The position numbers were made by a program, and so were the translations under genes. The notes beneath the pieces were generated by a model. The model was not told where the DNA came from. It worked only from the letters and a program-made list of their open reading frames with translations, and made no database searches. 36,696 nt of DNA, taken from Gemmatimonadota bacterium. GTDB lineage: Bacteria > Gemmatimonadota > Gemmatimonadetes > Longimicrobiales > RSA9. The stretch covers positions 1 through 36,696 of the forward strand of contig JADGQX010000015.1 of NCBI GenBank assembly GCA_017881445.1, in the 5' to 3' direction. Shown here piece by piece: positions 5,322 to 26,476 of the stretch (the stretch's first letter is position 1; the number at the start of each line of letters is the position of its first letter).

Positions 5322-6632
5322 ATGCTGAAGGTCATCGGCCTCAGCCACCACACCGCGCCGGTGGAAGTGCGCGAGCGCTTCGTGTTCGACGCCGCCGAGG
5401 GCGAGCGCGCGCTGCAGGCGGTGACGCACGGGGAAGCGGCGGAGGCGGTCCTGCTCTCCACCTGCAACCGCACGGAGCTGTACCTGGGCCTGAGCGAGGG
5501 CGCCTCCCCCGACAGCGCCGTGGAGGTCCTGGCGCAGCACGCCCGCATCTCGGTGGAGGACGCGCGCGCCTACCTCTACACCTTCGAGGAGCGCCGCGGC
5601 GTCGAGCACCTGTTCCGCGTGGTATCCAGCCTCGATTCCATGATCCTGGGCGAGCCCCAGATCCAGGGGCAGGTCAAGAACGCGTACGAACGGGCGGTCT
5701 CGGCCGGCAACGGCACGCCCGACGGCGGCCGCGTGGTCGGGCCGCTGCTCTCGCGGCTATTCCAGCACGCACTGGCCGTGGGCGGCAAGGTGCGGAGCGA
5801 GACGCACCTGGGCACGGGCGCGGCCTCCATCCCGTCCGCCGCGGTGGAGCTGGCACGCAAGATCTTCGGCCCGCTCAAGGGGCTGAACGCCCTGGTGCTG
5901 GGCGCGGGCGAGATGAGCGAGCTCTCGCTGGAGTGCCTGCTGGGCGAGGGGGCGCGCGGCACGGTGGTGGCCAGCCGGACGGAGGAGCGCGCCCGGGCGC
6001 TGGCGCGGCGGCTGGACGCGGGCTATGCCCGCTTCGAGGAGTTCCCCCGCCTGCTGCGGGACGCCAACATCGTGGTGAGCGCGACCGCCGCGCCCCACGC
6101 CATCATCACCCGGGAGCTGGTGCTGCGGGCGCTGCCGAACGGCCCCGGCCACCCGCTGCTGGTGGTGGACATCGCGCTGCCCCGGGACGTCGAGCCGGAA
6201 GTGGGGGACATCCCGAACCTCTTCGTGTACGACATCGACGACCTGCGCCAGATCGTCGATGACAACGTCGAGCGGCGGCAGAAGGAGATCCCCCGGGCCG
6301 AGCGCATCGTGGAATCGGCGGTCGAGGACTTCTGGGCCTGGCACAGCTCCCGGGACGTCGTGCCGCTGATCCGCCAGCTGAGGGGGCGGGGTGAACAGTT
6401 GCGCGCCGCGGAGCTGGAGCGCGCCATGCGTCGGCTGAAGCACCTGGCGCCCGAGGACCAGGCGGCGGTGGAGGCCTTGACGCGGCAGCTCCTGAACAAG
6501 ATGCTCCACGCCCCGACGACCCGCTTGCGGGAAGCGGCGGCGAGCGGAGATGCGCTGGACGTGGCGGACGCGGCCCGTTACCTCTTCAAGCTCGACATGG
6601 AAGACCCACAGGGGAAAGGCCGGGTGGAATGA
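5322..6632 (+). CDS. hemA: Glutamyl-tRNA reductase
   Basis: VIGLSHHTAPVEVRE, LLSTCNRTELY, GEPQIQGQVK motifs. Confidence 0.97.
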   Translation: MLKVIGLSHHTAPVEVRERFVFDAAEGERALQAVTHGEAAEAVLLSTCNRTELYLGLSEGASPDSAVEVLAQHARISVEDARAYLYTFEERRGVEHLFRVVSSLDSMILGEPQIQGQVKNAYERAVSAGNGTPDGGRVVGPLLSRLFQHALAVGGKVRSETHLGTGAASIPSAAVELARKIFGPLKGLNALVLGAGEMSELSLECLLGEGARGTVVASRTEERARALARRLDAGYARFEEFPRLLRDANIVVSATAAPHAIITRELVLRALPNGPGHPLLVVDIALPRDVEPEVGDIPNLFVYDIDDLRQIVDDNVERRQKEIPRAERIVESAVEDFWAWHSSRDVVPLIRQLRGRGEQLRAAELERAMRRLKHLAPEDQAAVEALTRQLLNKMLHAPTTRLREAAASGDALDVADAARYLFKLDMEDPQGKGRVE

Positions 6633-7597
6633 ACAGGGTGCTGGTGACCGGTGGCGCAGGGTTCATCGGCAGTCACGTTGCCGAGGCGTACCTCCGGCGC
6701 GGCGACCGGGTGTGGGTGGTGGACGACCTGTCCTCGGGCCGACTGCAGAATCTGGCCGCGGGCATCGAGTTCGTGAAGATGGACATTGCCGATCCGGGCC
6801 TGGACGACCTGTTTCGCCAGGTCGGCGGCTTCGACGTGGTGAACCACCACGCCGCGCAGATCGACGTGCGCAAGTCGGTGGCGAGCCCCGCCGCCGACGC
6901 CCGCATCAACATCATCGGACTGCTCAACGTCCTGGAGTGCGCCCGCCGCCACCAGGCGGGTCGCGTGATCTTCGTGTCCTCCGGCGGCGTGGTCTACGGC
7001 GAGCCGGACGTGCGCCCCACGCCCGAGACCGCGCCCAAGGCGCCGCTCTCGCCCTACGGCGTGACCAAGCTCTCGGCCGAGTACTACCTCAACTACTACG
7101 AGCGCATCCACGCCCTGCCCTACGCGGCCGTGCGCTACTCCAACGTGTACGGCCCGCGCCAGGACCCGCACGGCGAGGCGGGCGTTGTGGCCATCTTCTG
7201 CGAGCATGTGATCGACGGCAGGCCCCTCACCATCTTCGGTGACGGCGAGCAGACGCGGGACTACGTCTTCGTGGGCGACGTCGTCGCGGCCAATCTGGCG
7301 CTCACCGACGCCGCACTGCCGCCGCCGGACGCCGTCGGCCTGGCCGGCGGCATCGACGCCCGGGCGTTCAACGTCGGGACCGGCGTCGAGACCACGGTCA
7401 ACGAGCTGGCGGAGCTCACCATGGACGTGGCCGGGCGGCGGGTCGAGGTGGGCTACGGTGCCGCGCGGCCCGGCGAGCTGCGCCACTCCTCGCTGGACAA
7501 CCGGCGGCTGCGTGCGCTGGGCTGGGCACCGCGCACTTCCCTGGGCGAAGGTCTGCGTCAGACCTACGAGCACATCAAGGGACAAGCCCAGGCATGA
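6629..7597 (+). CDS. NAD-dependent epimerase/dehydratase (UDP-glucose 4-epimerase-like SDR)
   Basis: VTGGAGFIGSHVAE, SSGGVVYGE, YGVTKLSAEYY (YxxxK), VRYSNVYGPRQDP. Confidence 0.9.
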   Translation: MNRVLVTGGAGFIGSHVAEAYLRRGDRVWVVDDLSSGRLQNLAAGIEFVKMDIADPGLDDLFRQVGGFDVVNHHAAQIDVRKSVASPAADARINIIGLLNVLECARRHQAGRVIFVSSGGVVYGEPDVRPTPETAPKAPLSPYGVTKLSAEYYLNYYERIHALPYAAVRYSNVYGPRQDPHGEAGVVAIFCEHVIDGRPLTIFGDGEQTRDYVFVGDVVAANLALTDAALPPPDAVGLAGGIDARAFNVGTGVETTVNELAELTMDVAGRRVEVGYGAARPGELRHSSLDNRRLRALGWAPRTSLGEGLRQTYEHIKGQAQA

Positions 7598-24320: not shown

Positions 24321-24326
24321 TATAAT
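24321..24326 (+). promoter_or_regulatory. Consensus -10 element upstream of the cupredoxin gene
   Basis: TATAAT, only weak -35 candidate; would give a leader of about 180 nt. Confidence 0.55.
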
Positions 24327-24335
24327 CCCGTCGGT

Positions 24336-24489
24336 CCCGCCTTCCTGAGATAGGGCCACTTTCCGCACGACGAGGTGGGAAATCTGGACACGGAAACGCG
24401 GCGATCCCCCGACAGCTGATCCGTCAAACTCCTGAGGAAAGCAGCTCCGCCATTGCGGTAGAGTAACCCGCAGAGGGCAGGTGGCGGGC
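24336..24489 (+). ncRNA. Candidate structured 5' leader of unknown class
   Basis: Possible closing stem CCCGCC..CCTG near 24337-24348 with CAGGTGGCGGG 24479-24489; internal AGCTG/CAGCT and CCGC cattG CGG hairpins; ends about 20 nt before the ATG. Confidence 0.35.
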
Positions 24490-24510
24490 TCATGCTGTAA
24501 GGAGTCGACG

Positions 24511-24921
24511 ATGCGAAAGGCACTGGGAGGGATCGGGGTGGCGCTGCTGATGGGGCTCGTGGGCACGGTGAGTGCATCGGCGCAGGCACCGAAGGCTGCG
24601 GGGCACCTGGTCGTGGTGAAGATGGTGGAGGTGGCGGGGCAGCAGTTCCGCTTCGAGCCGGCGAGCATCACGGTTCAGCCGGGGGACACGGTGCGCTGGC
24701 TCCAGGAATCGGTGGCGCCGCACAACGTCCAGTTCGAATCGAAGCCGAAGGGTGCGCGGCTGGGCGGCGCGGACATGGGCGGCTACCTCACCTCGAAGGG
24801 CGAGGCGTACCAGCTGGTGATCGATGGGCGCTTCCCGTTGGGCACCTATGGCTACCTGTGCACGCCGCACGGGCCGATGGGTATGAAGGGCACGATGACG
24901 GTCGCGGCATCCGCCCCCTAG
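24511..24921 (+). CDS. Exported type-1 copper cupredoxin (plastocyanin/amicyanin-like)
   Basis: RBS AAGGAG; signal peptide ...SASAQA; copper ligand pattern APHNVQF ... YLCTPHGPMGMKG. Confidence 0.88.
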   Translation: MRKALGGIGVALLMGLVGTVSASAQAPKAAGHLVVVKMVEVAGQQFRFEPASITVQPGDTVRWLQESVAPHNVQFESKPKGARLGGADMGGYLTSKGEAYQLVIDGRFPLGTYGYLCTPHGPMGMKGTMTVAASAP

Positions 24922-24986
24922 GAGGCGGTACCCAGGCGCGCGACGAACCAGGGCGGACCGATATCGCCCAAGCGAGGGAGGGTCTC

Positions 24987-26414
24987 ATGGTTCGGACTCG
25001 TCGTTGGCTGGTCGTCGTTGCAGTACCCGTTGTGGCGGGCCTCTTGCCGGGCCCGGCGGTCGGAGCCGGTGTCCCGGCGGCGCCCGGCGCGCACGCCGGG
25101 CTCTGGCGAGGCGGGCGGGCGGTGGCACTGCGGGATGCGCCGGATGCTCCGATCCCGAGCTTTTCGCGGCAGACGCGGCTGCCATGCACCGCGTGTCACA
25201 CGACGTTCCCGCAGCTCACCGCGTTCGGCCGGCTGTTCAAGCTCAACGGCTACACGCTCACGGGAATCGAGCAGATCCGGTCGCAGCTGGACACCTCCCA
25301 GGCGCCCGTGCTGGCGCTGGACCTGATCCCCCCCGTGTCCGTGATGGCGGAGGCGGCCGTGTCGCACGTTTCGGAGGCGCCGGCCGGGACGCAGAACGAC
25401 CAGGTCGACTTCCCCCAGCAGCTCAGCCTCTTCATAGGCGAGGCCATCACGCCCAAGCTCGGCACCTTCCTGCAGTTCACGTACACGGCGGCGGATGGCG
25501 CCCTGGGCTGGGACAACGCGGACATCCGCTTTGCCAACCACACCACCTTCGCGTCGCAGCCGCTGATCTTCGGGATCACGCTGAACAACAACCCGACGGT
25601 GCAGGACGTGTGGAACACGGTGCCGGCCTGGGGCTTCCCGTTCGCGAGCTCGTCGGTGGTGCCGACGCCGGCGGCGGCGACCATGGTGGACGGTGGGCTG
25701 GGCCAGCGGGTGGCGGGGCTGGGCGCCTACGGCTTCTGGAACAACCTGCTCTATGCGGAGCTGAGCGTATACCGCTCGGCGCCGCAGGGCGGGCCGCACC
25801 CGGCGGACTCCACCTCCACGAGCACGATCCGGGGCGTGGCGCCGTACTGGCGCGTGGCGCTCAACCGGCAGTCGGGAGCGCAGAGCTTCGAGGTGGGCAC
25901 CTACGGCATGCAGGTGAAGCAGTACCCGGAGGGTGTAGCGGGCCCGACCGACCGGTTCCGCGACATCGCCTTCGATGCCCAGTACCAAGTGGAGTCCGGG
26001 CCGACGCTGGTGGCGCTGCACGGCACCTGGATCGACGAGAGCCAGACGCTGGACGCGACGGCGGGGGCGGGTGGCGCCGACAACGTGGTGGACCACCTGC
26101 GGACGCTGCGGGCGGACGGGTCGCTCTTCTGGCCCCAACGCCGGTTGGGGGCGACGCTCGGCTTCTTCACCACCAGCGGCGACGCCGACGCGGGGCTCTA
26201 CCCGGCGGCGGCCGTCAGCGGCAGCGGTACGGGGTCGCCCAACAGCACCGGGCTCATCGGCCAGTTCGACTTCAATCCGTGGCTGAACACGCGCTTCTCG
26301 GCCCAGTACGTCTGGTACGGCAAGTTCAACGGCGCGAGCACGAATTATGACGGCTCGGGCCGGAACGCGTCGGCCAACAACACGCTCTACCTGGTGGCCT
26401 GGTTGGTGTTCTGA
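24987..26414 (+). CDS. Fused monoheme c-type cytochrome/outer-membrane porin, Cyc2-like
   Basis: Signal peptide; IPSFSRQTRLPCTACHTTFPQLTAFGRLFKLNGYTL with CxxCH; then a ~400-aa region with alternating aromatic beta-strand pattern ending in aromatic residue (LYLVAWLVF). Confidence 0.72.
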   Translation: MVRTRRWLVVVAVPVVAGLLPGPAVGAGVPAAPGAHAGLWRGGRAVALRDAPDAPIPSFSRQTRLPCTACHTTFPQLTAFGRLFKLNGYTLTGIEQIRSQLDTSQAPVLALDLIPPVSVMAEAAVSHVSEAPAGTQNDQVDFPQQLSLFIGEAITPKLGTFLQFTYTAADGALGWDNADIRFANHTTFASQPLIFGITLNNNPTVQDVWNTVPAWGFPFASSSVVPTPAAATMVDGGLGQRVAGLGAYGFWNNLLYAELSVYRSAPQGGPHPADSTSTSTIRGVAPYWRVALNRQSGAQSFEVGTYGMQVKQYPEGVAGPTDRFRDIAFDAQYQVESGPTLVALHGTWIDESQTLDATAGAGGADNVVDHLRTLRADGSLFWPQRRLGATLGFFTTSGDADAGLYPAAAVSGSGTGSPNSTGLIGQFDFNPWLNTRFSAQYVWYGKFNGASTNYDGSGRNASANNTLYLVAWLVF

Positions 26415-26447
26415 TCGGGGGGCGCGGCAGGGGAGGGCGGAAAAAAG

Positions 26448-26476
26448 GGGCGCCCGGGCGATTCGCCCGGGCGCCC
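26448..26476. terminator. Bidirectional intrinsic terminator between convergent genes
   Basis: 13-bp perfect stem GGGCGCCCGGGCG/CGCCCGGGCGCCC with ATT loop, A6 before and TTTCTT after. Confidence 0.85.

Follow-up and report, generated by a model that had tools for sequence, protein, structure and literature searches.

A plastocyanin-like cupredoxin encoded beside a Cyc2-like cytochrome-porin in a Gemmatimonadota genome: a probable electron-uptake pair

The window, the 36,696-nucleotide stretch analysed here, comprises contig C54 of a Gemmatimonadota genome in full and carries two adjacent genes, one for a secreted plastocyanin-like cupredoxin and one for a Cyc2-like fused monoheme cytochrome and porin, which probably form the outer-membrane and periplasmic part of a Cyc2-type electron-uptake chain, with Fe(II) as the most likely donor. 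The dissolved reductant would reach the heme through the pore, and the heme would hand single electrons to the cupredoxin as the first periplasmic acceptor. The cupredoxin would then deliver them to acceptors in the inner membrane whose genes lie in other parts of the genome: an oxidase of caa3 or cbb3 type, and an ACIII-like complex, of the kind associated with the porin, which would exchange electrons with quinones. The cupredoxin would hold the place of cytochrome c (Cyc1) or rusticyanin in known Cyc2 chains, such as that of A. ferrooxidans, in which Cyc2 passes electrons to rusticyanin, from where they reach either cytochrome c4 and the oxidase or, uphill, bc1.

This explanation is favoured by the Cyc2-type heme region and OprO/OprP-like 16-strand fold of the porin, by a carrier gene beside the porin in 57 of 88 loci and a cupredoxin there in 10 of 40 Gemmatimonadota loci, by the presence of ACIII, bc1 and COX1 genes among the neighbours of the porin, and by the oxidases and a particular pentaheme protein (on C189) of the host genome. 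It is weakened by a heme-region signature that differs from the published one at two positions, by nearest relatives that have no adjacent cupredoxin, by the 11 of 40 Gemmatimonadota loci that have no carrier, by the absence of RuBisCO from the host genome, and by the MtrAB-like conduit that this genome also encodes, which might handle iron in place of the pair.

The gene pair and its products

The host genome is 4.75 Mb in size and 99.6% complete, and the GC content of the window contig (0.712) is in line with the rest of it. Both genes of the pair are real. The cupredoxin gene (24511 to 24921, plus strand, ATG at 24511) encodes 136 residues and is preceded by a Shine-Dalgarno-like AAGGAG (24499 to 24504, plus strand); it comes first and is separated by a 65-nt gap from the cytochrome-porin gene (24987 to 26414, plus strand), which encodes 475 residues. 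This arrangement agrees with the preliminary description of this DNA, in which a secreted cupredoxin lay directly ahead of a cytochrome-porin. The cytochrome-porin is not a chance open reading frame, given its full-length homologues in the phylum and the 569 or more found in GTDB contigs. An Rfam search of 23.8-26.6 kb gave no match.

Upstream of the pair lies a TatA-like gene, and downstream a convergent gene for a PpiD/SurA-like chaperone. The A. ferrooxidans rus operon (cyc2-cyc1-cup-coxBACD-rus) likewise encodes a cytochrome-porin together with a small copper protein, but the window has two genes only, with the plastocyanin-like cupredoxin first and without adjacent cyc1 or cox. With these neighbours, and with the cox genes of the genome on other contigs, a rus-type operon was rejected.

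The pair had also been credited with a TATAAT of its own. The hexamer is present (24321 to 24326, plus strand), 190 nt before the first ATG and as the sole copy in the window, but it has no -35 partner, no sigma-70-type site was scored there, and about 0.7 copies are expected by chance in 36.7 kb on both strands at 71% GC, so it provides no evidence of a promoter and the claim of an own promoter is unsupported. Between the convergent genes, a strong hairpin with a 13-bp all-GC stem and T-rich tails on both strands (26448 to 26476) is likely a bidirectional terminator, as had been proposed; it is scored on the minus strand by the terminator tool, and the plus-strand tail, TTTCTT, was recognised by eye.

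The cytochrome-porin begins with a signal peptide, judged by eye, which is followed by the signature PIPSFSRQT (residues 55-63; 25149 to 25175, plus strand), the heme-attachment motif CTACH (residues 67-71; 25185 to 25199, plus strand) and PQL at residues 75-77, the whole heme region reading PIPSFSRQT-RLP-CTACH-TTF-PQL. AlphaFold2, given an alignment with 50 relatives, predicted short helices around the heme motif and then a beta-barrel of exactly 16 long strands (residues 117-474; 25335 to 26408, plus strand; pLDDT 82, pTM 0.79), and the C-terminal residue is F, in keeping with the initial reading of one CxxCH fused to a barrel with an aromatic end. The best Foldseek matches in the PDB are 16-strand porins (OmpU, Omp32, OmpF and others), with OprO (E 7.5e-8) and OprP (1.8e-7) ranking behind them. 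By sequence, the protein has no significant match in Pfam or NCBIfam, falls in no curated family there, and has no match in the PDB. In the alignment of relatives, seven acidic residues beyond the heme domain, D176, D207, D326, D330, E351, D401 and D455, show little or no variation. A search of that alignment for an invariant distal heme ligand found, besides H71, no His and no Met conserved at 93% or more, so no distal ligand is proposed.

Keffer et al. 2021 (PMC8406198) described the Cyc2 family as having a signature, AXPXFAR[QK][TY], ahead of the heme site and a 16-strand porin, with OprO and OprP as named structural relatives. The window protein shares with this family the signal peptide, a single N-terminal CXXCH followed by PXL, the predicted 16-strand barrel resembling OprO/OprP, and the length (475 residues, against at least 365 in the family); its signature, PIPSFSRQT, is related to the published one and departs from it at two positions, and its partner, a plastocyanin-like cupredoxin, is a further difference. 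With F or Y allowed at the fifth position, the full motif is carried by 18 of the 24 relatives from Bacteroidota and by 19 of the 20 from Pseudomonadota, and homologues about 50% identical to the window porin keep it intact. The published sequence features and the modelled barrel support the assignment of the protein as Cyc2-like, bar the two signature substitutions. Conduits of the MtrAB/PioAB type also lead electrons through an outer-membrane barrel, but they consist of two proteins with a decaheme cytochrome and 26 strands; with one fused protein, one heme and 16 strands, this type was ruled out for the window pair.

The cupredoxin has a signal peptide, recognised by eye, a Copper-bind domain (PF00127, 5.9e-19) and the predicted type-1 copper ligands H71, C117, H120 and M125, which are invariant across porin-linked cupredoxins. 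Its best sequence match in the PDB is a plastocyanin (1.6e-20), and its AlphaFold2 model (pLDDT 86) resembles plastocyanin with a TM-score of 0.84 on the target, so that domain, fold and H-C-H-M ligands are all of plastocyanin type. It has the fold and the H plus C-x2-H-x4-M ligands in common with plastocyanin and pseudoazurin, but it scores 68.3 bits against the curated plastocyanin equivalog TIGR02656, below the cut-off of 87.85, and its partner is a porin rather than a photosystem. The parallel drawn earlier with rusticyanin stands in so far as a small copper protein lies beside the porin, but not in the kind of protein. The ligand loop of rusticyanin is C-x4-H-x4-M, and a rusticyanin identity was rejected because the window protein has the C-x2-H-x4-M spacing known from plastocyanin and pseudoazurin. 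All of the 60 PDB matches listed are to plastocyanins, amicyanins or pseudoazurins, apart from one to a designed protein that is unrelated; rusticyanin is absent from them.

Distribution of the cytochrome-porin and the nature of the donor

A close form of the cytochrome-porin is present at full length in about 37 of 300 Gemmatimonadota genomes, a phylum from which Cyc2 homologues have already been reported in metagenomes; it is single-copy in the window genome and was not found in any of the 11 other sampled genomes of the host family. The best 80 of the at least 569 relatives belong to Gemmatimonadota, Bacteroidota, Chlorobiota/Ignavibacteriota, Acidobacteriota and Proteobacteria. Plasmid-borne homologues with 32-43% identity occur in Caballeronia, Ralstonia, Acidiphilium, Acidithiobacillus, Methylocystis and others. 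That of A. ferrooxidans YQ-N3 (plasmid CP084173.1, L040, 49686-51053) is annotated as hypothetical and is followed by a c-type cytochrome gene, and the homologue on an Acidiphilium cryptum plasmid equals it in identity, score and matched stretch.

Many Gemmatimonadota also encode a far more distant heme-porin form, which has mainly the heme region in common with the window protein and which, used as the query in the plasmid search, gave no match. At one locus (L046) this distant form (AIPAWARKYNMNCNGCH type, about 400 residues; 5546-6730) and the close form lie about 1.3 kb apart.

The hosts of the relatives are mostly not known iron oxidisers, which lends some weight to a donor other than iron: an uptake conduit with the same anatomy and wiring could be fed single electrons by a different source, for instance Mn(II), reduced humics or phenolics, or a partner cell. 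We consider this unlikely, yet deserving of serious attention. A 50%-identical homologue with a cytochrome c gene directly ahead of it is found in Melioribacter sp. MnB_16 (L051:3370-5187), whose record name presumably denotes a Mn-oxidising culture. The Cyc2 of Mariprofundus, which oxidises Fe(II), has its single heme at +208 mV, and a heme at about this potential is low for Mn(II) oxidation, which speaks against Mn(II) as the donor. In the literature, Cyc2 is nonetheless regarded as a candidate for the Mn(II) oxidase of Ca. Manganitrophaceae. Keffer et al. (PMC8406198) caution that function is uncertain outside the verified Cyc2 clades, but all three verified Cyc2 proteins oxidise Fe(II), in agreement with the preferred reading of an Fe(II)-fed chain.

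Carrier genes beside the porin

A six-frame census of neighbours covered 105 relatives from several phyla, of which the 88 with at least 700 nt on both sides of the porin were usable. A gene for a small cytochrome c or a cupredoxin lies within 700 nt of the porin in 62 of these 88 loci, and on the same strand in 57. The background density of carriers away from the porin is 0.016 per kb, giving about 0.03 expected per locus, a comparison that is somewhat favourable because the cytochrome profiles were seeded from the neighbours. Pfam confirmed cytochrome c and copper domains in sampled neighbours. The type of carrier varies by lineage, being a mono- or diheme cytochrome c or, in Gemmatimonadota, a cupredoxin. 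It is mostly a monoheme cytochrome c in Bacteroidota and a diheme one, reminiscent of cyc2-cyc1, in Gammaproteobacteria; the Methylocystis locus has three diheme cytochromes, and in Caballeronia a HiPIP gene precedes the porin and a c-type cytochrome gene follows it.

Of the Gemmatimonadota loci, 40 in all, a cytochrome c accompanies the porin in 17, a cupredoxin in 9, both in 1 and neither (within 800 nt) in 11; the remaining 2 are too short. The 10 loci in which a cupredoxin adjoins the porin occupy different branches of the porin tree, on which a quick method places four changes of the cupredoxin label, at least three of them forced by well-supported branches. Conserved linkage of the two genes, as envisaged in the preliminary description, is therefore borne out in part: cupredoxin linkage recurs but is not universal, and in most relatives a cytochrome c stands there instead.

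These loci also bear on whether a Cyc2-like porin may simply have the cupredoxin as an unrelated neighbour, engaged in copper handling or in another respiratory branch. The nearest relatives on the porin tree are mostly without an adjacent cupredoxin, several having a divergent cytochrome c, and the host genome has five other Copper-bind matches. Nevertheless, a similar cupredoxin (36-52% identity among the porin-linked ones) stands beside the porin in nine other loci of the phylum, on separate branches, and the low background density of carriers also makes a fortuitous neighbour improbable. Together with the predicted 16-strand barrel, the recurrent linkage supports the transfer suggested at the outset, in which electrons would pass from the heme of the porin to the periplasmic cupredoxin.

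The Cyc2-type porin is itself of a known kind, and what we rate as new is its pairing with a plastocyanin-like cupredoxin. Such a pairing is not described in the titles and abstracts of a partial survey of the literature on Cyc2 with cupredoxins or gene clusters, nor in a partial survey of that on iron oxidation and extracellular electron transfer in Gemmatimonadota.

Further out from the porin, ACIII-like genes are found in 11 loci, bc1 in 7 and COX1 in 2. Five Bacteroidota loci (L061, L066, L067, L069 and L085) have an operon-like series of cytochrome-porin, monoheme cytochrome c, pentaheme and molybdopterin protein, and beyond it four of the five carry two more ORFs, a four-heme and a copper-binding-like one. 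Porin, carrier and ACIII-like genes are adjacent in Bacteroidota and Acidobacteriota relatives, unlike in the window.

The host genome and the wider uptake system

A scan of the host genome for terminal oxidases found a caa3-type and a cbb3-type enzyme, both encoded on other contigs. RuBisCO is absent from this genome, making autotrophic growth on iron by the RuBisCO route unlikely. A pentaheme and a molybdopterin-type protein (ACIII-like) are encoded on C189 (L171:1704-4542, plus strand), in a set unlike the other ACIII copy of the genome, on C15. The C189 pentaheme shares 61-65% identity with the copy next to the porin in three Acidobacteriota genomes, two of which have further copies with 32-33% identity. 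Among the matches listed, no other of the 300 Gemmatimonadota genomes exceeds 45% identity to it, and none of 150 other genomes of the Acidobacteriota class has a match at E 1e-50. As all four genomes were reached via the porin, this co-occurrence of pentaheme and porin is suggestive rather than a controlled association. An origin of C189 by contamination was rejected, its GC content (0.70) being that of the host genome and not that of the Acidobacteriota loci (0.56-0.63); this, and the 77-78% identity of another gene on C189 to same-family genomes, indicates that C189 belongs to the host genome.

The host genome encodes many multiheme cytochromes. On C154 (L170:5053-8233, minus strand), a porin of the MtrB/PioB family (297 bits) has a ten-heme ORF next to it and is accompanied by a small monoheme cytochrome; this set is a predicted second, independent outer-membrane conduit of MtrAB-like kind. 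This inventory, and the fact that sequence does not reveal direction, would allow the window pair to work outwards, releasing periplasmic electrons by way of cupredoxin and heme to an acceptor outside the cell, for example Fe(III). This is very improbable, since electrons leaving plastocyanin-type copper centres, whose usual high potentials (about +0.3 to +0.4 V) favour inward flow, would have to move uphill to reach Fe(III) at neutral pH, and the recurrent bc1, ACIII and oxidase neighbours fit uptake.

The favoured uptake chain has its nearest model in Mariprofundus ferrooxydans, for which a Cyc2-Cyc1-ACIII chain has been proposed (reviewed in PMC5566968). Both would lead from an outer-membrane monoheme porin to a periplasmic carrier and an ACIII-like complex; in the window the cupredoxin takes the place of Cyc1, and the ACIII-like genes are unlinked.

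A broader reading is offered tentatively, as one we hold to be slightly on the doubtful side of even. The porin may be one module of a spreading, mix-and-match uptake system, in which the gate has been repeatedly re-paired with mutually unrelated carriers, a cytochrome c, a cupredoxin or perhaps a HiPIP, and feeds a travelling, dedicated ACIII-like quinone complex, and in which iron would supplement heterotrophy in Gemmatimonadota that have no RuBisCO. Cyc2 homologues outside the known iron-oxidiser phyla are one of the chief grounds for suspecting that microbes oxidise iron more commonly than cultures show. A homologue alone carries little information, but a conserved carrier, carrier switches and a co-resident ACIII-like complex turn it into a testable chain, which would sit in a common soil phylum, and with a cupredoxin as the partner the first electron-transfer step would be accessible with two expression constructs.
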